In this document: positions 6,301 through 25,240 of the stretch, one piece after another | Position numbering within the stretch: position 1 is the stretch's first letter | Layout of the letters: each line of letters begins with the position of its first letter | Assembly: GCA_020048335.1 (NCBI GenBank) | Contig: JAIFMS010000159.1 | Coordinates: 1-45,942, forward strand | Origin: Methylococcaceae bacterium | GTDB taxonomy: Bacteria > Pseudomonadota > Gammaproteobacteria > Methylococcales > Methylomonadaceae | DNA length: 45,942 nucleotides | Reading direction: 5' to 3' | The notes under the pieces: model-generated | What the model saw: the letters and a program-made list of their open reading frames with translations, nothing else | What the model was told of the DNA's origin: nothing | The model's database searches: none | Made by a program: the position numbers and the translations under genes

Positions 6301-7758
6301 TTAACGCTCTTCACGTTGTTGTTTTGCTTCCAATATAAAAAAGCGTAGCCGTTCTTCCAATACTTCTGCCAAATAACTGTCCAACGGGCGCATTTTTTGA
6401 GCCAGTTTAATTTGCAAAATCGCCGTTTCTGTCTGACCTATCGCATAGTAATATTCAGCTAAATAACGGTGCGATTGGGCTAATTGATTCAAATCCGCAT
6501 ACGATTGTGACATGAACTCTAAATATAACAGTTGCTCTTGTTTGACATTGGCTAACGACTTTAAAACCTGTTGGGCGGCTTTGGCTTGCCCTGCTTTCAA
6601 TAAACTGCTGACATAATCAAACTTAATGGCATAATTATTGGGAAAGCGTTTGATAGCTTGTTGATAGATTTTAACAGCTTTATCATACTGTTTTCCCTCT
6701 AAAAATACCCGCGCTAACCCTGTTAAATAATGCGGTTGCTCAGGATAACGGTTGACTAAGTCCTGCAAGCCTTGTTCGGCGAGTCCCATTTTTTGCATTT
6801 TCAAATAGCTCAACGCTTCACCATATTGGGCAACCGCCCGTTGTTCGGTGAGACCTTGTAATTTAGTCAATTGAAAATAACGCAAGGTTGTCGGAGTATC
6901 CGTTTGAGTTAAAACACGCAATTTGGCTTTAATCAAAGCATAAGTTAAAGAATCAGGATATTGCCGATAAGGATACTGCTCGGCACGTCCTCGGGTATCC
7001 GAAATCCTAGAAACGGTGACAGGATGGGTTCGCAAAAATTCAGGAATGCCCGTCCCATAAAAACGGGTAGATTGTTCTAAACGTTCAAAAAAAAGGGGCA
7101 TACTGCGTGGGTCATAATTGGCGGTCGCTAAGGTTTGCATTCCAATTCGGTCGGCCTCTTGTTCATTATCGCGGGTAAAATCAATTTGCGCCTGCATACT
7201 GCCCGCTTGAATTGCCATAATGGCCGCTTGTCCCATCTGCGGATTTTTTATCCCCAATAAAATCGCCGCCAACGTTGCTGCCGCGGTGGGAATTGACAAG
7301 CGACTTGCCGCTTCAAAGGCGCGATAAAGATGGCGTTGCGTCACATGAGCAATTTCATGTGCCATTACCGAAGTTAATTCACTTTCTGCCTCGGTCATTA
7401 AAAATAAGCCCGAATTGACCCCAATATAGCCACCAGGCCCTGCAAACGCATTAATCGTATTATCTAAAACCACAAAAAAATAAAACGGTTGATTTGGATT
7501 GTCGCTATTTAAGGCAAGCTTTCGCCCGACAGATTGAATATAGTGCGAAATTTCAGCATCTTCGTTGACCTCAACTTGTGCATGAAGCTGTCTAAAAAAA
7601 GCCTCGCCCAGTTCTTTTTCTTGTGCAGGTGAAATCAATGCTCCTGAAGAATCGCCCATATCGGGCAGCTGGATTTTTTCAATATCTTTTGCCAAGGGCA
7701 GCGGTGAAAACAGTGCCAAACATAGGCTAAAACCCAAAATAGAATTAAATTTCATCAT
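6301..7758 (-). CDS. bepA: Periplasmic M48 metallopeptidase with TPR repeats, BepA type
   Basis: 485 residues, the usual BepA/YfgC length. A signal peptide is followed by an M48 catalytic domain with the zinc motif MAHEIAHVTQRHL near residue 133 and the third-ligand region FTRDNEQEADRIGMQ near residue 195. The C-terminal half has TPR-like helices (for example YLTGLARVFLEGKQYDKAVK). BepA works in the periplasm on stalled outer-membrane assembly intermediates such as LptD and at the BAM complex. It lies 2 nt downstream of the GGDEF-EAL gene, so both may share a transcript. Confidence 0.88.
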   Translation of the reverse strand: MMKFNSILGFSLCLALFSPLPLAKDIEKIQLPDMGDSSGALISPAQEKELGEAFFRQLHAQVEVNEDAEISHYIQSVGRKLALNSDNPNQPFYFFVVLDNTINAFAGPGGYIGVNSGLFLMTEAESELTSVMAHEIAHVTQRHLYRAFEAASRLSIPTAAATLAAILLGIKNPQMGQAAIMAIQAGSMQAQIDFTRDNEQEADRIGMQTLATANYDPRSMPLFFERLEQSTRFYGTGIPEFLRTHPVTVSRISDTRGRAEQYPYRQYPDSLTYALIKAKLRVLTQTDTPTTLRYFQLTKLQGLTEQRAVAQYGEALSYLKMQKMGLAEQGLQDLVNRYPEQPHYLTGLARVFLEGKQYDKAVKIYQQAIKRFPNNYAIKFDYVSSLLKAGQAKAAQQVLKSLANVKQEQLLYLEFMSQSYADLNQLAQSHRYLAEYYYAIGQTETAILQIKLAQKMRPLDSYLAEVLEERLRFFILEAKQQREER

Positions 7759-7760
7759 CT

Positions 7761-10700
7761 TTAAATGTGCTGGCGCATATAATTTTCAAATGTTTGACTA
7801 TCTAAGGGTTTACTAAATAAATAACCTTGATAATGAAAACAGCCTTGAGTTTTTAAAAAATCCAATTGTGCCTCTGTTTCAACCCCTTCTGCAATCACTG
7901 CCAAGCGCAAATGACGAGCCATTGAAATAATCGTTTCTACAATCACTTTATCATTATCATCATGCTCAATATCATCAACAAAGGCTTTATCTATTTTTAA
8001 CTCATTCAACGGTAAACGCTTTAAATACGCAAGGGAAGAATACCCCGTACCAAAATCATCAATTGAAAAAGTAAATCCTAAACTTCTTAATTGCAGCATT
8101 TTTTCAATAGTTTGATCAATACGGTCTAAAAAAACACTTTCAGTTAATTCTAAAATAATCACAGCGGCATTGACTTGTGTTTCTGCGACTAATTTTGTGA
8201 GTTTTGGGAAAAAATCGACTTCTTTAAACTGTTTAGAACTGACATTAATTGAAATATGCTGATCTTTTTTTAACACCCCAGTTTCTAACCAAGTTTTTAT
8301 TTGCAAAAAACTTTCTCGAAAAACCCAATACCCAATCTCCACAATAAGTCCTGCTTCCTCAGCAATAGGAACAAATTTATTGGGTGAAATAAAACCTAAC
8401 TCAGGCACATTCCAGCGCAATAAAATCTCCGCCCCTGTGATTTTTTTTAAATGATTAAATTGTGGTTGATAATATAAGGTAAATTGTTCCAAACGAATAG
8501 CAGAGCGTAAATTTTTCTCAATTTCTAATCGTTTATCAGCCGCTTCCTGCATTTCAGAACGGTAAAATTGAAAGTTATTTCGACCATTATCTTTAGCACG
8601 ATAGAGTGCCGTATCGGCTTGTTTTAAAACATGGGTTACATTTTGTTCTTTTAAAGGAAATAGCGTAATACCTACGCTAGCATTATTATGATAACTGTGT
8701 TGTTTTAATAAATAAGGTTCGCGTAAAGTGATTAAAATCTGTTCGGTTATTTTGCCCGCCAGATGAATCGCTATTTCTAATGAATTGCTTAAATTAACAA
8801 GTAATATCACAAATTCATCACCCCCTAGACGCGCGACTATATCTTCTTGCCGCAAATGCGTTTTTAAGCGTGTTGCAACTTGGGTTAATAATTCATCGCC
8901 TATTTCATGCCCTAATGAATCATTAATGTGTTTAAATTGGTCTAAATCTAAAAATAATAATGCACCGAATTGTCCATGCCGTTTTGCTGCAATAAACGCT
9001 TTGTTTAACTGTTCAGAAAGCAACCGGCGATTAGGCAAATTTGTGAGCGCATCATAATAAGCCAATTGTGTAATTTGAGCCTCAGCCTGTTTACGTTCAT
9101 TAATACTTACGCCTGCACCGCGTAGTTTTATAAATTCACCATTTTTATCTAAAACCACTTGCCCTTTGACTTCTTCCCACAAAATTTCATTTGTGGGGGT
9201 TTTATTTTGAAAAGTTAATTCAAAATTACTTTTTTTAGCAATCGCTTTATTAAGAATATGTGTAACATCAGGAATATCTGTCTCCAGTAGAGTATCAAAA
9301 ATAGACTTTCCTAATAATTGCGCAACAGTATATCCTTTAACAGCTTGAACTCTTTCAGTTAAATAGCAGTAGGTTAATTGTCTATCTAATTCCCAAATAT
9401 ACGCCCCCGATGCTTCAATCACGCTTCTAAAGCGTTCTTCACTTAATTGCAATGCAGAATAGGTCATATATTGTTTGGTGACATCTTGAAAAACTAAAAT
9501 AACGCCAATAATAGAATTATTTTTATCTCGAATAGGGGCGGCACTATCGGCAATTTGAAAGGCTTTTCCTTGTTTGGAGATTAAAACAGTATGATTGGCA
9601 AGTCCTACAATAACTCCTTCGCGAATGACTTTTTCAACTGGATTTTCAACCACTTCTTGGGTTTGTGCATTCACAATACAAAAAACATCACTTAAAACAA
9701 TGCCTTCTGCTTGCGAAAAATGCCAACCTGTCATGTTTTCTGCCACAGGATTCATACGAGTTATTTTTCCTTTTGTATCCGTGACAATAACCGCATCCCC
9801 GATAGAATTAAGGGTAATTGCAAGTCGTTCTTCTCGGTCACGCAATTGTTCTTCGGCTTGTTGTTTTAATTGTTCTAATTCAATTTTTTCCAATGCAAAA
9901 CTAATATCTTTTGTCATTTCATCCAATAAAGAAATAACATCATCGGTAAAATAATCGACCCGATTTGCATAAAGGGCAAATACACCAATCACTTGTTTAA
10001 ATTTACAGATTGGAAAAGCGGCACTTGCACAAATTTTAGATTTTTCAGCCGCGTGTTGCCACGGTTTTGTTAAAGGACTTTTACAAAAATTATTAACAAC
10101 CATATTGCGATTTTCACGAATAGCAATGGCAGAAGGGCCTTGTCCTTGAGCAAGAGTAGGATTGAGTGAAATTGTTAAGCTGTCTAAATAGGCTAAAGCC
10201 GAACCTGATTTTGCTAAAATATCAACCGACTGGGTTTGTTGATTACTTAATCCTATCCAAGCTAGAACCAAGCTGGGTTTTTTAACTGCAATAGTACAAA
10301 CATCATCAAATAATTGTTGTTGTGATTGAACACGAATCAATAGCTTATTCGTTGCACTTAATAAAGAGTATAAATTTTTTTGTTTGGTTAATTGAGTTTG
10401 AAAAGTTAATAGATTTTCGGTTAATTGATTAAACGAATGTCCTAAAATAGCCAGTTCACCGTTCCCTGTTAAATTTGCTTTGACGGTTGTATTGTATGAA
10501 AACTCATCCATGGCGTGTATTAAATGCTTAATAGGATGATTAATTAACTTTTTTAAAACAAGTGTTAAAAAAAACATTAATAGAATACAAATTCCCCATA
10601 ATAAACCACTTTCCGCTAACACGGTATCATAAATAGCTGCTAATAATTGCGATATATCATAGCGAATATATAAAACACCATAGGAAGTGGAGCGGATATT

Positions 10701-11147
10701 ATTAATCTGTGGGTAATGCACAGGAAAATAAGCGGTAATAACAGAGGTATTTTCACTGAGTTCAACAATGGGTTTTGATGTAATAGTTAATGGAAACAGT
10801 TCTGTTTTAAATTGCGGGAAAACATTAAAGATATATTTGTTTTTCCAAGCATAGCGTGTTGCATATTGCACTTTTTTATCAGGGCTAATTAAAGCCAGTG
10901 TTTCTACTTCGGACTCTAATCCTAACCCGCTAATTTCTTGTTCAATTAAATAATCATCACGATGATTTAATGCTTCTTCAATAAAGCGTTGCAAGCGTAT
11001 CATCGTGTAAGTAACGTTGGCAGTTTTTTGTTGCTTTAAACTAGCGGTTTGAACAGTTGTTTGATAAAAAAACATCCCTATAATTAAAACGGTAGTGAAA
11101 ATAAAAACAATACTGGGAATCCATAACCGTAAATTAACCGTTTTCAT
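7761..11147 (-). CDS. Membrane HAMP-GAF-PAS-PAS-GGDEF-EAL c-di-GMP protein
   Basis: 1128 residues. Order: membrane helix (about 10-28), periplasmic sensor region (about 30-175), second helix (about 180-198), HAMP-like linker, GAF (about 265-420), coiled coil, two PAS domains (about 435-555 and 565-690), GGDEF (about 695-850) and EAL (about 860-1120). The cyclase loop reads RLGGDEFVILL and looks intact. The phosphodiesterase signature is AEILLRW (EIL instead of EAL, with Glu kept), and the downstream metal and catalytic motifs LELTESVFL, DDFGTGYSS and AEGVET are all present. It could therefore make or degrade c-di-GMP. Its start overlaps the end of a substrate-binding lipoprotein gene by 14 nt, suggesting that protein is its periplasmic ligand sensor. 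Confidence 0.9.
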   Translation of the reverse strand: MKTVNLRLWIPSIVFIFTTVLIIGMFFYQTTVQTASLKQQKTANVTYTMIRLQRFIEEALNHRDDYLIEQEISGLGLESEVETLALISPDKKVQYATRYAWKNKYIFNVFPQFKTELFPLTITSKPIVELSENTSVITAYFPVHYPQINNIRSTSYGVLYIRYDISQLLAAIYDTVLAESGLLWGICILLMFFLTLVLKKLINHPIKHLIHAMDEFSYNTTVKANLTGNGELAILGHSFNQLTENLLTFQTQLTKQKNLYSLLSATNKLLIRVQSQQQLFDDVCTIAVKKPSLVLAWIGLSNQQTQSVDILAKSGSALAYLDSLTISLNPTLAQGQGPSAIAIRENRNMVVNNFCKSPLTKPWQHAAEKSKICASAAFPICKFKQVIGVFALYANRVDYFTDDVISLLDEMTKDISFALEKIELEQLKQQAEEQLRDREERLAITLNSIGDAVIVTDTKGKITRMNPVAENMTGWHFSQAEGIVLSDVFCIVNAQTQEVVENPVEKVIREGVIVGLANHTVLISKQGKAFQIADSAAPIRDKNNSIIGVILVFQDVTKQYMTYSALQLSEERFRSVIEASGAYIWELDRQLTYCYLTERVQAVKGYTVAQLLGKSIFDTLLETDIPDVTHILNKAIAKKSNFELTFQNKTPTNEILWEEVKGQVVLDKNGEFIKLRGAGVSINERKQAEAQITQLAYYDALTNLPNRRLLSEQLNKAFIAAKRHGQFGALLFLDLDQFKHINDSLGHEIGDELLTQVATRLKTHLRQEDIVARLGGDEFVILLVNLSNSLEIAIHLAGKITEQILITLREPYLLKQHSYHNNASVGITLFPLKEQNVTHVLKQADTALYRAKDNGRNNFQFYRSEMQEAADKRLEIEKNLRSAIRLEQFTLYYQPQFNHLKKITGAEILLRWNVPELGFISPNKFVPIAEEAGLIVEIGYWVFRESFLQIKTWLETGVLKKDQHISINVSSKQFKEVDFFPKLTKLVAETQVNAAVIILELTESVFLDRIDQTIEKMLQLRSLGFTFSIDDFGTGYSSLAYLKRLPLNELKIDKAFVDDIEHDDNDKVIVETIISMARHLRLAVIAEGVETEAQLDFLKTQGCFHYQGYLFSKPLDSQTFENYMRQHI

Positions 11148-12120
11148 TATTTATCTCGGTAGGTAAAAAAGAACTATTGATTAAAGGGTCGGTGGTTATT
11201 TTTTTAAATAATAAATGCTGTTTTAGCATTAATTGGATAAGATGATTGGCTGAAATTTTTAAAGAAGGATTTCTCCCTACTAATAGCTGTTTATTTTCGG
11301 CTACATCTGGGCTGTACATTCCTTTAAATTGTAACCGCACTTCTTCAGGCGCAAGCTGTAGTCGGTCTGCCATGCCAATTGCCGCTTGTTCGGGAGAAAC
11401 GGTAAAATAATTCAGAGCCTTAAAATAGGCGATGAGCAGCTGTTTTAATTGCTCAGGTCTTTGCTCAACGATGGCTTGATGGGTGACTAAAACATCGACA
11501 ATGCGGTTGGGAATTTTTGAACTGTCAAAAAGTTGCTTTGCGCCTAAGGCAAGTAATTGACTTTTAACAGGTTCAAACGTGACAACTGCATCAACGTTGC
11601 CTTGTTGGTAGGCACTTAAATGCTCATCAATACTCAGCGGCACAAGGGTAATTTCTGACGTTTGAAGATGTGCCTCTGTTAATGCGCCATCCAGTAAAAT
11701 AGCGCCTACCGCTGCATTTTCTACGCCGATTCGTTTGCCTTTCATGGCTGCCAATGTGCCGATAGAGGGTGAGGCTAATAAAACATCGCCCCCATGAGAA
11801 ATGTCAATGACTGCAATCACCCGAATGCTTTGGTCGTGTTGGGCAAGGGTGAGGGCTTCATCAAGCGTGAGGGCGGCAACATCCAATAAGTGATTGCGAA
11901 AAGCATGGCTGACCTCGGTTGCAGAAGGAAGTTCCACCATTTTAATGGCGGTGTTTTGTAAATAACCCAGATGACGGGCTAAATAAAAAATTTCATAGCC
12001 TGGCCAAATATTGGTGCCAACTTTTAAGGGCGGCTGGTGTTTTAAATCACAGCTACTAACAAGTGAGCATAAAGTAAACAATAAAATAATGCGTAAGGCA
12101 ATAGCATATTGGGTCAGCAT
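11134..12120 (-). CDS. SsuA/TauA/NMT1-like substrate-binding lipoprotein
   Basis: About 328 residues from the ATG at 12120, chosen because AGGA lies 6 nt upstream and a lipoprotein signal follows directly (IILLFTLCSLVSSC, lipobox V-S-S-C). The mature part begins with LKVGTNIWPGYEIFYLAR, the fold of periplasmic binding proteins for nitrate, sulfonates, taurine or thiamine precursors. Further motifs are KGKRIGVENAAVG and GNVDAVVTFEPV. No ABC permease or ATPase gene is adjacent; instead the gene overlaps a GGDEF-EAL receptor. A sensing rather than uptake role is inferred. An upstream extension in the same frame exists but would bury the signal peptide. Confidence 0.82.
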   Translation of the reverse strand: MLTQYAIALRIILLFTLCSLVSSCDLKHQPPLKVGTNIWPGYEIFYLARHLGYLQNTAIKMVELPSATEVSHAFRNHLLDVAALTLDEALTLAQHDQSIRVIAVIDISHGGDVLLASPSIGTLAAMKGKRIGVENAAVGAILLDGALTEAHLQTSEITLVPLSIDEHLSAYQQGNVDAVVTFEPVKSQLLALGAKQLFDSSKIPNRIVDVLVTHQAIVEQRPEQLKQLLIAYFKALNYFTVSPEQAAIGMADRLQLAPEEVRLQFKGMYSPDVAENKQLLVGRNPSLKISANHLIQLMLKQHLLFKKITTDPLINSSFLPTEINNENG

Positions 12121-12277
12121 AAAAAATCCTAGTATCTGCATAGACAGAAGGGAGCTATGGAGGTGAAACATTCGATTAAAACACGGTTTCTGATCGTTTA
12201 AATAGGATAAAGCATGACACATAGGTGGTTCTAGTTAAAGCGATTTGACTTTGGGGCTAGAACATTAGGGCAGTGAC

Positions 12278-13867
12278 CTAGGTCTTTAAAATTCTGGTTA
12301 AAGGGCCAGGTTCTGGCATATTCGCAGACTCTGTTTGCTTATCACAGGCTGCAATAAACGCGGCTAATTCGACTTGTTTTTGCGCCTGTTCCTGTTGATG
12401 TAACGCAAGGGCTTGAAAAACGCCATTTTCAAGGGAAAGCAAAGCCGTTGCCAAGCCTTTTTTTAATCCGCGTAACGCCGCTTTTTCGAGTGAGGGCTGC
12501 ATTTTTTTCTGCACAAAATACGGCAATGCCCAGCTTATTAAAATTAACAAACTGCTATGTGCGACAAAATCCACCCCTAAATACGCTTGATGGTGTAGAG
12601 AGCTTTCATAATAGCTGACAAAAACTTGATACCCTACGCCGCTAAGTGCCGTTAAAGGAAATAATACAGCACAAATTGCCACCAGTTTTAATACGCCGCG
12701 TTGCACCGCATTCCCAGGTTTAATTAACGCCGTTCGACAACTTAATTCAGTTTGCTGCTCAATTTGTTTGCCCGCTTGTTTTTTAAGTTCTACAAAGCGA
12801 TTTTTTAAAGGCAAAGAAGCAATGTGTAAGTGATTAGCGGTCAATAGTAGCGCGTCTAAACCATCATTAAAACGGGTTTGCGCCCATTCATCCCAGAGTT
12901 GTAAAGGCTGCTGTTTCACCATTATATCGGTATTTTTTAGGGCATAGCGTTTGGCATAGTGCTGTAAATTCCAGAGAAATCCCTGTGTTAAGACAGCGGC
13001 TATTTTTTGCCATTGCTGTTGCCAGTCTTTTGTTAAAGTGGCAAAGGCGGAGGTTTCTGCAAATAAACCCTGACACGCCAGCAATTGCTGCTTGAGCTGT
13101 TGTTTTTTAAGCTGTGATTGATATAACGCTAATTGTTGAATATTTTTTTCGCTCGTAAGCGTTTCCAAACATGACAATAATCCGTTAAATTCATCAGGTT
13201 CGGTAAATTCAGTGCAACTGGTGCGAAAAATGAACGGTTCAGTAAAACCTGCACTGTGCAGTTGTTGAGTAAAATCATCATATTGCGCAATACTGCCTTT
13301 ATCCCATTGATTTAACACAAATAACCAGCCATGCCGCGCCCCTTCGGCTTGTAATAATCGCCACGCTTTGCCATCTTTATAGCGTTCAGGACTGACCACA
13401 TAAATCAGCACGTCAATATAAGGCAGCCATTGCAACACCAGTTGTTTGTTATGCGATTCGGTGCTGTCAAAATCAGGCATATCAATCCAGATACTGTTTT
13501 TTTGCTGCACATCGTGATGTTGAGCGAGAGTGATTTTCTGCACAGGCAAATCAGCGGGTAATTCCCCTAAACTGACCGATTGATGATGATACAGCGTGAC
13601 CTCGCGCGAAGTTGGACGCTCTATCCCTGATTGGGCAATCGCTTGACCTGCAAGGCGATTTAATAAGCTACTTTTTCCCACGCCCGTGCCGCCCATAAAA
13701 GCGACAATTAACGGGCGAGTTTGCGCGTGAATGGTTAAACTGGTGGGCGGGTTAGCGGTTATTTCCAATAAGGAAGCAACATCAGCGGCAGTGAACCACT
13801 GTTGTTCAAGTGTATGCTCAACCCATTGTTTTATGGTTGCTTGAAGTTCAGAATAATCGTAAGCCAT
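12278..13867 (-). CDS. Dynamin-like membrane GTPase, second of a pair
   Basis: 529 residues. The G1 P-loop GGTGVGKSSLLN lies near residue 60, a G3-like WIDMPDFDSTE near 132, and a G4-like LNQWDKG near 185, where the usual Lys of NKxD is Gln. Two hydrophobic segments around residues 388-440 (KLVAICAVLFPLTALSG and HSSLLILISWALPYFV) predict membrane insertion, flanked by Gln/Leu-rich helices. This resembles bacterial dynamin-like proteins. It overlaps the upstream GTPase gene by 20 nt and shares its DxPDFDS signature, so they probably act as a hetero-pair. The function is unassigned. Confidence 0.75.
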   Translation of the reverse strand: MAYDYSELQATIKQWVEHTLEQQWFTAADVASLLEITANPPTSLTIHAQTRPLIVAFMGGTGVGKSSLLNRLAGQAIAQSGIERPTSREVTLYHHQSVSLGELPADLPVQKITLAQHHDVQQKNSIWIDMPDFDSTESHNKQLVLQWLPYIDVLIYVVSPERYKDGKAWRLLQAEGARHGWLFVLNQWDKGSIAQYDDFTQQLHSAGFTEPFIFRTSCTEFTEPDEFNGLLSCLETLTSEKNIQQLALYQSQLKKQQLKQQLLACQGLFAETSAFATLTKDWQQQWQKIAAVLTQGFLWNLQHYAKRYALKNTDIMVKQQPLQLWDEWAQTRFNDGLDALLLTANHLHIASLPLKNRFVELKKQAGKQIEQQTELSCRTALIKPGNAVQRGVLKLVAICAVLFPLTALSGVGYQVFVSYYESSLHHQAYLGVDFVAHSSLLILISWALPYFVQKKMQPSLEKAALRGLKKGLATALLSLENGVFQALALHQQEQAQKQVELAAFIAACDKQTESANMPEPGPLTRILKT

Positions 13868-15593
13868 GTCGTTTTTCTATGCGTTGCTGTTGGGCGTGCT
13901 GTAATTGTTCGGGGCTGATGGCAAAACGCTGATGGTCGGCTGTTAAATCAGGCAGTTCGAGTAAGGCACGACGTAACACAGCGGTAAAAACAGAGTTTTG
14001 TAAGGTCAATAATTGCTGCTGTTTTAATTGCGCTTCTACCGTTTTCATATAACCGCCAATCGCGCTTTCGGTCAGCAGTGCGGTGATAGACATCATCGCA
14101 GGGGTGATAAATAAATCGTGTAAGCCAATTCCACCAAAATGAATCGTTAGTCCAACCAGTGCGGCATCGGCACTAATCCGTGTTGCCCGCAAACTGTTTA
14201 AAATAATTGGATGCTGCTCTAATTGGAGATAAAGCCGCTGTGCGGTGGCATCGACCTCTTGATAGAAAGTTTGTTGATACTGCGCGGCGGATTGATTGAA
14301 ATCTTGCAATAATTCTGCTTGTTGTTGCCGCAATAAACGGCGCAGGCTTTGCCACCAACGTTGCGCTTCACTGCCACTGTCATGTTTGTCTAAGAGCTGC
14401 TCTGCCAATTGCGTTAACACATGCGTGCCAATTTGGTTTAACAAAACCAATTCTTGATTGGCATACAAACTGGCTTCTTTGCTGCGTCCTAGGCGAGCGA
14501 TTTGTTTAAGTGGCCAAGTTAAAATTTGGCGCATCGTGCTTAAAAAACCTGCTAGCCCCGGAATTTCCAGTAAATTTAGCAGTTCCAAAATAGCTTGCTG
14601 GAAGGTTTCATAATGCAGTGGATGATTTAAATAATCGCGTTGGTAGTCACGCAGTCCTTCTGCAATCGCCGTATCAACCAGCGTTTGCCAGTCTTGCAGT
14701 TGCTGCTGCTCTGCCAACAGCGGTTCTATCCAACCTTGCCAATACAAATTGATTAAATTTTGCTGAGATTGCTTGTGTTGCCGATGGTCAACTTTTTTAG
14801 CCAGTTGAAAAAAAACCTGTGAATACTGGCTGTCCCAACGGGGCAAACCTGTGTGTTTTTCATAAAACAACGGCACAACCGCAGGAAACGCATCAGAGCG
14901 GGCGTGTCGCCATTTTTCTTGCAGCGATTTAATAATGATTTCTTCGTTGCCTTCGTTGAGCTTATTAATACACACTAAGGTGGGTTGTTTAAATACCGCC
15001 AAGGTTGCCATTAATTCCCAAACCGATTGGTCGGCATATTTTTCTTTACTTAATGCCAATACAATAATATCTGCCAAGGCGATAGTCCGAATCACCCCTT
15101 CTTTGTAATCGGCGGCATCAATGGAGTCAAAATCAGGCGTATCCCAAAATACACAAGGCGGCAATAAGCCTGTCGGGTGGGGATTTTCAGCTAACGCATA
15201 GCAATCATAGCGATTTTTGCTCAGTTGCTGCGGCTTCAGTTGTTGATAACGACCAAAATAGTGTTGTAAGCTGTAGCAAGCCGATTGCGAAACCTCGACA
15301 CAAAAGCCTTGCGGATGAACGGTATAGCCTGCTAATGGGCTGATTTGCGCAACTTCACTGTTCAAAATAACATTAGTTAATGAACTTTTCCCCGCTTGGG
15401 TTGGGCCGATGATGGCAATTTGTAACGGCAGTTTGGGTTCATTTTCCAAAAGCTGTCCTTTGCGCAGAAAGGCTTCGGCAAAAATAAGCTGCTCAATGCG
15501 CTGTCGATAACTGGTGGCTATCGCGCTGTTGTCCTTATGTTGCGACAAAACCGCTTGATAACGTTGTCTTAATAAAGGGATAAATTCCAGCAT
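13848..15593 (-). CDS. Dynamin-like GTPase, first of a pair
   Basis: 581 residues. The P-loop IIGPTQAGKSSLTN is near residue 66, a threonine-containing G2 stretch PLAGYTVHPQG near 90, G3 VFWDTPDFDSID near 150, and G4 CINKLNEG near 208. The C-terminal half is helical and Gln/Leu-rich, with a weakly hydrophobic stretch (about 470-515, including LHDLFITPAMMSITALL) that may contact membranes. The first gene of a two-gene unit, it is divergent from a lipoprotein gene. Tandem unequal GTPases are a known pattern among bacterial dynamin-like proteins, where partners co-assemble. The exact family is not named here because I could not run a search. Confidence 0.75.
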   Translation of the reverse strand: MLEFIPLLRQRYQAVLSQHKDNSAIATSYRQRIEQLIFAEAFLRKGQLLENEPKLPLQIAIIGPTQAGKSSLTNVILNSEVAQISPLAGYTVHPQGFCVEVSQSACYSLQHYFGRYQQLKPQQLSKNRYDCYALAENPHPTGLLPPCVFWDTPDFDSIDAADYKEGVIRTIALADIIVLALSKEKYADQSVWELMATLAVFKQPTLVCINKLNEGNEEIIIKSLQEKWRHARSDAFPAVVPLFYEKHTGLPRWDSQYSQVFFQLAKKVDHRQHKQSQQNLINLYWQGWIEPLLAEQQQLQDWQTLVDTAIAEGLRDYQRDYLNHPLHYETFQQAILELLNLLEIPGLAGFLSTMRQILTWPLKQIARLGRSKEASLYANQELVLLNQIGTHVLTQLAEQLLDKHDSGSEAQRWWQSLRRLLRQQQAELLQDFNQSAAQYQQTFYQEVDATAQRLYLQLEQHPIILNSLRATRISADAALVGLTIHFGGIGLHDLFITPAMMSITALLTESAIGGYMKTVEAQLKQQQLLTLQNSVFTAVLRRALLELPDLTADHQRFAISPEQLQHAQQQRIEKRHGLRLF

Positions 15594-25138: not shown

Positions 25139-25191
25139 GGGTTGAGCCTCCACTTATCCCGCCTAATAACTGGCTTTTTGAACCAGCACCC
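25139..25191 (-). promoter_or_regulatory. Structured rpsB leader, possible S2 autoregulatory element
   Basis: In the untranslated leader upstream of rpsB the minus strand has GGGT (25191-25188) able to pair with ACCC (25142-25139), enclosing a CTGG...CCAG hairpin and an unpaired purine-rich stretch GGATAAGTGGAGG. Many gammaproteobacterial rpsB leaders are bound by S2 for feedback. I infer the same here from position and structure; conservation was not checked. Confidence 0.4.
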
Positions 25192-25240
25192 TATCAGACG
25201 TGTCGATAAATGTGAGTATTAATTTAAAAATGAACTTACC

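Follow-up and report, generated by a model that had tools for sequence, protein, structure and literature searches.

A solute-binding lipoprotein and its Cache-domain receptor: a probable two-part periplasmic chemosensor with exchangeable outputs

In LuxP-LuxQ, TorT-TorS, AioX-AioS and similar kinase systems, the membrane receptor is controlled, via its periplasmic domain, by a binding protein that is either soluble or anchored. In NspS-MbaA, the PotD homologue NspS controls a polyamine receptor: passages of PMC8967002 describe ligand-loaded NspS as associating with MbaA and shifting it from phosphodiesterase to cyclase activity, and the overlap of the two genes is given, in part of PMC9993111, as 16 bp in Vibrio cholerae and 3 bp in Sinorhizobium meliloti. 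Here we analyze a stretch of 45,942 nucleotides (nt) from a Methylococcaceae bacterium (contig JAIFMS010000159.1; hereafter, the window) in which the gene of a lipid-anchored solute-binding protein (SBP) overlaps that of a membrane receptor with GGDEF and EAL domains, the domains of cyclic di-GMP (c-di-GMP) synthesis and breakdown, respectively. In the genomes searched, homologues of this SBP are regularly encoded next to receptors with a homologous periplasmic Cache domain, which is joined to either c-di-GMP enzymes or histidine kinases. The lipoprotein and the receptor are very likely a functional pair and, with good if somewhat lower confidence, the two genes can be considered to encode a two-part periplasmic chemosensor.

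On comparative-genomic grounds, the pair can be placed among the SBP-dependent membrane receptors, a known kind. LuxP-LuxQ, TorT-TorS and AioX-AioS involve other SBP families and other periplasmic domains, whereas the input described here serves kinases as well as c-di-GMP enzymes. A mode of action similar to that of NspS-MbaA, in which the SBP gene likewise overlaps the gene of a membrane GGDEF-EAL receptor with a HAMP domain, is supported. The pair is, however, not a member of the NspS-MbaA system because the SBP is not of the PotD type (Pfam SBP_bac_8) but NMT1/SsuA-like, by its Pfam family matches and its nearest folds, because the periplasmic part of the receptor is shorter, and because the same Cache family also drives kinases. 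Specifically, the periplasmic region comprises about 150 residues that form a single Cache domain, compared to about 230 in MbaA (residues 24-256 of the S. meliloti protein, as given in part of PMC9993111), and a GAF and two PAS domains are added between the HAMP and the catalytic domains, the components with which MbaA is described being HAMP, cyclase and phosphodiesterase. The portion of a review that deals with the periplasmic-binding-protein clan names SBP_bac_3 as its only family studied in c-di-GMP networks, a statement that concerns domains within the enzymes (PMC8846402). No publication on the pairing was found in searches of the open-access literature, some of them aimed at other subjects, which is weak evidence of absence, subscription papers being mostly outside that search.

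The lipoprotein and its receptor

The SBP is encoded at 11134..12120 on the reverse strand (open reading frame (ORF) list, Pfam, NCBIfam and structure model) and consists of 328 amino acids (aa), with Cys24 as the lipobox cysteine. The ORF spans 11134-12222 on the same strand, with another in-frame ATG at 12222; the ATG at 12120 is most likely the start because the lipoprotein signal fits it. The lipobox-like motif V-S-S-C occupies residues 21-24. The protein matches Pfam NMT1 (58.7 bits, cut-off 20.5) and NMT1_2, with NMT1_3 reached merely at E 0.01, and scores 104.3 bits with the SsuA_fam model TIGR01728, under the curated cut-off of 163.5. The structure model (predicted local distance difference test score, pLDDT, 95.9) is closest to SsuA (2x26, Z 30.2, root-mean-square deviation (rmsd) 2.3 over 281) and TauA (6ssy, Z 30.1, rmsd 2.9 over 284).

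The SBP gene precedes the receptor gene, which occupies 7761..11147 on the same, reverse strand, so that the reading frames overlap by 14 nt (11134..11147, from the ORF coordinates). The receptor (1128 aa; ORF list, Pfam and structure model) has a single periplasmic region between two transmembrane (TM) helices, in the order TM, Cache, TM, HAMP, GAF, PAS, PAS, GGDEF and EAL. The domains from HAMP onward come from Pfam, HAMP scoring 23.5 bits on the whole protein (cut-off 25) and 25.9 bits in a scan restricted to the N-terminal 255 residues. By the ORF list and Pfam scans of the direct neighbours, the SBP gene of the window is not adjoined by a permease or ATPase gene. The original prediction, made from the sequence of the window, of an SsuA/NMT1-like lipoprotein devoid of adjacent ATP-binding cassette (ABC) permease or ATPase genes and of a 14-nt overlap with a membrane GGDEF-EAL receptor bearing a periplasmic domain was accurate on both counts.

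In the GGDEF domain (residues 696-858; 8574..9062, reverse strand; Pfam and inspection by eye), the GGDEF motif and the RxxD inhibitory-site motif, five residues ahead of it, are intact by eye. The EAL domain (residues 878-1114; 7806..8516, reverse strand; same sources) carries the signature EIL, with the remaining catalytic motifs seemingly present by eye. From the state of these motifs, the enzyme can probably act in both directions. The GAF and PAS domains between the membrane and the enzyme point to the integration of a second signal, from the cytoplasm.

The periplasmic domain (residues ~30-178; 10614..11060, reverse strand) was delineated by alignment, structure model and fold search. 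The model (pLDDT 94) consists of a long helix and, after it, a PAS-like sheet, the architecture of a single Cache domain. The closest solved folds are the extracellular domain of WalK, top by Foldseek E-value (Z 17.3 for an integrative model and 14 for crystal structures), and the TlpQ chemoreceptor domain (Z 15), followed by many other Cache and dCache sensors. The WalK domain is likewise a single Cache flanked by TM helices (Z 14-17), but the identity is 14-16% and the partner proteins, YycH and YycI in the case of WalK, are unrelated. No Pfam sensor-domain family covers this Cache domain: among 82 members scanned, there was one weak CHASE8 and one weak sCache_4 match (E 0.002-0.005), whereas HAMP was matched in 77. 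In an alignment of the 82 N-terminal receptor regions, P142, R152, G157 and D164 stand out as near-invariant positions of the segment enclosed by the membrane helices. R152 belongs to the loop that connects the final two strands of the Cache domain (residues ~144-155; 10683..10718, reverse strand; alignment and structure model), a candidate docking site for the SBP.

Pairing across genomes and exchange of outputs

A scan of one genome per species with the single SBP as the query found nothing, whereas a 27-sequence alignment yielded at least 525 relatives, of which the best 80 were kept by name. In 78 of these 80 loci, the SBP gene adjoins that of a Cache receptor (77 downstream and 1 upstream); the two misses are L113, cut by a contig end, and L141, a true orphan. 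None of the 80 loci has a match to the permease models, which were built from two seeds confirmed by Pfam as BPD_transp_1 (a third seed, a urea amidolyase associated protein, was excluded from the permease count). ATPase matches occur in five of the 80 stretches, all on the opposite strand. The 80 loci come from 11 named phyla (39 from Pseudomonadota, 22 from Cyanobacteriota, 5 from Nitrospinota, 4 from Thermodesulfobacteriota, 2 each from Acidobacteriota and Nitrospirota, and one each from five more) along with one record without a phylum; being made of best matches, the sample leans to close relatives. The sole "Actinomycetota" record, L123 (a Streptomyces griseus metagenome-assembled genome), encodes a kinase receptor resembling cyanobacterial ones, and its label is probably wrong. 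Seven of the 80 (L071, L077, L078, L083, L094, L134 and L148) are the same DNA as relatives already counted, so that the two samples overlap; such duplicates were removed before the trees were built and R152 was counted.

Of 398 genomes drawn evenly over the phylum of the window, 43 had matches, and the receptor domain adjoined the SBP gene in 26 of the 29 loci that, the window itself aside, scored best; of the exceptions, L193 and L206 have a kinase match nearby, and L194 has nothing in its short flank. Among 101 genomes from the surroundings of the window, 33 had matches at E 1e-20. Three of these are ABC importers; for the other 30, the genome of the window included, a Cache receptor adjoins in 17, the pair is split in one (G018) and cut by a contig end in another (G088), and the remaining 11 constitute a separate subgroup. 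In G018, about 840 kb of a single contig separate the SBP gene (L043) from that of the Cache receptor (L180), which by eye has transposase-like genes nearby; this pair was probably split by a rearrangement. The genes typically lie close together: in the relatives, a 4-nt overlap is found in 38 of 85 pairs, and the start is at most 30 nt from the stop in 65 of 85 (with the first start codon taken in each frame). No single-frame fusion of the SBP and the receptor was detected among the matches listed, the longest open frames of which, 536 aa (G345) and 515 aa (G010), were not examined. The locus L073 (1252-6903, forward strand) contains three SBP genes and two kinase receptors, apparently a repeated sensing unit; its two extra SBP paralogues were not counted as pairs.

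The outputs behind this input vary. Among the 78 named pairs, 47 receptors are histidine kinases, 20 are GGDEF-EAL proteins, 7 are GGDEF proteins and 4 were left unscored. A quick SBP tree of 81 rows with scored output implies at least 11 output changes, at least 5 of them forced by well supported branches (an earlier subsampled count of 3 changes across 47 rows is superseded). Over 84 pairs, the correlation between the distances in the SBP and Cache trees is 0.81 (L102 and L108, whose Cache domains are partial, were left out), compared to 0.23 in the best of 2000 shuffles and 0.35 when shuffled within output class. In the kinase set (47), the SBP-Cache correlation is 0.85 vs 0.39 between the SBP and the kinase, which resides on the same polypeptide; in the GGDEF set (35), the respective values are 0.61 and 0.40 with the GGDEF end. 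Because the SBP tracks the Cache domain better than the catalytic domain of the same polypeptide, and far better in the kinase receptors, SBP and Cache domain appear from these trees to travel as one unit, whereas the catalytic end is exchanged.

Receptors that lack an adjacent SBP gene point to a part of the Cache domain that could be involved in the pairing. Among the 101 genomes, 25 Cache matches were obtained at E 1e-45 or better, 17 beside an SBP gene and 8 not; together with one weaker match, the latter form an unpaired set of nine. R152 is retained in 77 of 86 paired receptors vs 2 of the 9 that are unpaired (p 3e-5, in a comparison of 13 columns; the column was picked after viewing the alignment, and the cases are few). 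Without L188, which starts 210 nt from a contig end such that an upstream partner is possible, the count is 2 of 8 (p 1.4e-4). The nine are not all independent: L181 and L187 belong to one genus, and three receptors show a near-neighbour identity of 21-27%. The fold positions are kept in the unpaired receptors (P142 and L159 in 8 of 9 each, L86 in 7 and Y163 in 6). Residue L145, in the same loop, is also depleted (53 of 86 vs 0 of 9), as are G76 and R98 (52 of 86 vs 1 of 9 each). One of the two unpaired receptors with R152 is that of G018 (L180), the SBP of which is encoded elsewhere in the genome; the genomes with L188 and L183 hold another receptor that is paired. Because receptors without an adjacent partner gene have mostly lost R152 but not the fold residues, this arginine may be a docking residue lost once the partner was lost, which makes its loop a candidate docking site.

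The original prediction likened the pair to NspS-MbaA, with an SBP of a different class reporting to a c-di-GMP enzyme. The reporting part is supported by the near-universal pairing with a homologous sensor domain, the lack of permease matches, the co-inheritance and the loss of R152; the c-di-GMP part is too narrow, this being only one of the outputs, with kinases commoner in the named set.

The separate subgroup of 11 SBP relatives, left out of the Cache counts, extends the pattern of exchange. Most of its members carry a twin-arginine translocation (Tat)-type lipoprotein signal by eye (L066 does not, and the Cache-partnered L053 and L059 show it too). In eight (L054, L055, L057, L058, L062, L063, L064 and L066), the SBP gene adjoins a receptor with a PhnD-type domain (Pfam Phosphonate-bd), followed by PAS and a kinase or GGDEF-EAL; all eight receptors were scanned with Pfam, L063 being cut ahead of the output. 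By these domain assignments, the input partner of the SBP has been exchanged as well in this subgroup. In the remaining three, L056, L060 and L061, all from one genus, no receptor is encoded next to the SBP.

The binding pocket and importer relatives

The candidate pocket residues of the SBP are W39, Y42, D112, E134 and D209. In TauA, according to passages of PMC6906117, the ligand contacts are Gln30 and backbone groups for the sulfonate, and Glu106, Thr132 and Asp205 for the amine. Seven published contacts (Gln30, Gly61, Gly79, Glu106, Thr132, Trp176 and Asp205) match our TauA numbering letter for letter; Asn55, Asp84 and Ser109 do not and were left out of the comparison. Gln30 corresponds to W39, with Trp in 64 of 65 aligned sensing SBPs and Phe in one; Glu106 corresponds to D112 and Asp205 to D209, each Asp in 64 of the 65; and the position of Thr132 is not conserved, Val or Leu being usual. 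A HMMER alignment also gives the D112 and D209 equivalences, W39 being outside its reach. Because the anion-binding Gln is replaced by Trp and the amine-binding acids are retained, a small organic cation or amine is favoured over sulfonate or nitrate, although we put the chance that this is the ligand at about even. Sulfonate, nitrate and bicarbonate were considered as ligands; in the comparison of individual residues, which covered the TauA pocket, sulfonate is disfavoured, the sulfonate-holding Gln of TauA being Trp here, and the predicted pocket contradicts the "sulfonate" annotation of the SBP. As for the original assignment to a sulfonate/nitrate/pyrimidine-like group, the NMT1/SsuA fold agrees with it, whereas the pocket does not look sulfonate- or nitrate-like.

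The only permease-linked matches to the SBP search in the relatives are L067-L069, which form a separate guanidine-import clade (support 100) with 26-28% identity to the SBP of the window. A guanidine-I riboswitch lies ahead of each SBP gene and a guanidine-II riboswitch farther downstream. The downstream genes of L067 encode a permease and an ATPase (Pfam-confirmed), a urea amidolyase-associated protein and a urea carboxylase, the carboxylase being confirmed in L067 only. Urea carboxylases of this kind are guanidine carboxylases. The SBPs of the three loci exceed the SsuA_fam cut-off and fall under that of TIGR03427; because the latter is missed, it is the riboswitch and the neighbours that justify the guanidine label. 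The layout of the operon is consistent with that described in part of PMC12186494. Eight pocket-region residues (W39, G41, D106, S108, G110, D112, E134 and D209) are common to these three SBPs and the SBP of the window, unlike the adjoining permease and ATPase genes and the riboswitch in front, neither of which is found beside the SBP gene of the window. Guanidine itself was considered as the ligand: the shared residues make it attractive, but the guanidine-I riboswitch (RF00442, strict filters) occurs in 3 of the 101 genomes and in none of the 30 with a sensing SBP, and guanidine is kept only as a possibility. No Rfam guanidine riboswitch match was obtained in the window.

More generally, the sensing SBPs share the fold of the SsuA/TauA importers and the acids at TauA positions 106 and 205, and differ in the replacement of Gln30 and in having no permease or ATPase adjoining here. 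In a tree that includes importers, the sensing SBPs occupy one side of a branch (65 rows) with a support of 88, which is not strong; the rows of this tree include L226 in a wrong frame and L224 and L232 as fragments, and the C72 protein from the genome of the window was removed as a long branch.

Mechanism, genomic setting and significance

On the model of NspS-MbaA, the following sequence of events can be proposed. The lipid-anchored SBP would close on a small ligand, and the closed, loaded protein would dock, probably via the R152 loop, on the Cache domain of the receptor encoded next to it; the change of shape would then pass through TM2 and HAMP to shift the balance between c-di-GMP synthesis by GGDEF and its breakdown by EAL. 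Provided that the two proteins are a functional pair, docking through the Cache domain is highly likely. The SBP and the Cache domain would make up a portable input cassette that has been joined, in the course of evolution, to GGDEF-EAL, GGDEF or histidine kinase outputs.

Several observations weigh against this chemosensor. The permease models with their two seeds would miss unrelated permease families, and the receptor-domain model was iterated on the same loci that were then scored, the weakest accepted matches of the named set being at 41-60 bits. Nine Cache receptors lack an adjacent SBP, so that the receptor may act alone; one of them, L182, keeps R152 with no SBP found in its genome, and R152 is missing in 9 of the 86 paired receptors. 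Co-inheritance of linked genes is no proof of contact, and part of PMC11113362 notes that an sbp gene adjoining a kinase gene is not in every case connected with it in function. The riboswitch scan gave no indication of a metabolic link to guanidine. Finally, an ABC ATPase (ABC_tran and TOBE) is encoded 189 nt upstream of the SBP on the same strand in L061 (5232-6221, forward strand), and the same gene lies farther upstream in L060 (9256-10245, reverse strand), with integrase-like genes between it and the SBP gene; no permease match was obtained in either locus, and L056 has no ATPase in its stretch.

These points bear differently on the alternatives. The lipoprotein could serve an ABC importer whose other components are encoded elsewhere, and adjoin the receptor gene as an operon convenience, with uptake and signalling merely co-regulated. 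The SsuA/TauA fold (Z ~30), the best NCBIfam model, an importer subfamily though below cut-off, the NMT1-type permease and ATPase set on contig C72 of the same genome, and the lone ATPase of L060 and L061 all agree with this. Yet the C72 set has its own SBP, the best named loci combine 0 permease matches and 5 ATPase genes of opposite strand with 78 Cache receptors, and the three permease-bearing relatives belong to the separate guanidine-import clade, which renders this importer quite improbable. The original prediction would have given way to a cognate transporter always adjoining the SBP gene in relatives; no such arrangement was found, the sole shade being the ATPase in that one genus. Only slightly less improbable is that the Cache domain binds its own small ligand, which the lipoprotein scavenges or buffers within the periplasm, making no contact with the receptor: CitA and other single-Cache domains bind small molecules themselves, citrate-bound entries are among the fold matches, and the nine unpaired receptors would fit, but the loop arginine is among the most conserved periplasmic positions and is lost preferentially without the SBP while fold residues are kept, and the SBP tree closely tracks the Cache tree.

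The pair might also be linked by inheritance alone, as neighbours that move together with no functional connection. The short spacing, at most 30 nt in 65 of the 85 pairs, could by itself hold the genes together; against this, the linkage spans 11 named phyla, and plain hitch-hiking is hard to reconcile with a Cache domain that stays with the SBP while the catalytic end of the same polypeptide, kinase or cyclase, is replaced. We regard this explanation as very improbable, and the chemosensor formed by the lipoprotein and the Cache receptor remains the reading that we prefer.

As for the neighbours, a BepA-like M48 protease with tetratricopeptide repeats is encoded at 6301..7758 on the reverse strand (ORF list and Pfam), starting 2 nt past the receptor stop. 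A homologue with 58-64% identity also adjoins the receptor in four related loci (L038, L065, L070 and L184), and the gene is a probable operon passenger outside the sensor. The other direct neighbour encodes a dynamin/GTPase-like protein (12278..13867, reverse strand; ORF list and Pfam); it is one of two adjoining genes of this kind with overlapping ends (12278-15593, reverse strand), upstream of the sensor pair. No conserved RNA element was found at the pair, the t44 RNA (RF00127, 75.7 bits; 25141..25234, reverse strand) alone reaching the Rfam gathering score in the window. Promoter and terminator scans gave signal at or below the shuffle level, and an inverted-repeat search returned one weak pair only, within the SBP gene.

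The genome encodes three further NMT1-type proteins, one of which, on contig C72, has its own permease and ATPase. On contig C116 (L035:895-4965, reverse strand), a 1356-aa protein combines NMT1, SBP_bac_3, PAS, histidine kinase and receiver domains (Pfam), by its domain content a single-chain route that joins an NMT1 domain to signalling in the same genome. Contig C165 (L036:3063-3947, forward strand) encodes an isolated NMT1-type protein (294 aa, 49 bits) that lacks an obvious signal sequence, adjoined by a photolyase-like gene by eye. The original prediction placed the DNA in a Beggiatoa-type genome; the pmoA-family match found points instead to a methanotroph relative. That match (contig C64:6681-7356, forward strand) is split into two pieces that overlap and lie in different frames, reflecting either an assembly error or a broken copy.

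The novel features are the sensory role of an NMT1-type SBP, a Cache family that no Pfam model covers, outputs that are exchanged while the input is conserved, and a pocket at odds with the "sulfonate" annotation; the pairing, the Cache homology across outputs, the co-inheritance, the output swaps and the identities of the pocket residues were all computed in this work. We suggest only tentatively that a widespread, unnamed cassette monitors a small extracellular cation, either guanidinium-like or an alkylamine, in at least 10 phyla, plugged into c-di-GMP enzymes or kinases, and that in this methanotroph it would set biofilm formation or motility according to that cation. What is known of SBP-controlled receptors comes from a small set of studied cases, and the regular pairing in 11 named phyla offers a ready test set with one input, several outputs, natural half-losses and a named residue, while the pocket prediction narrows the ligand candidates to small cations. 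If the proposal is correct, it would assign a defined input to many receptors whose periplasmic domain is as yet undescribed, and many "sulfonate-binding proteins" that stand alone would be sensors.

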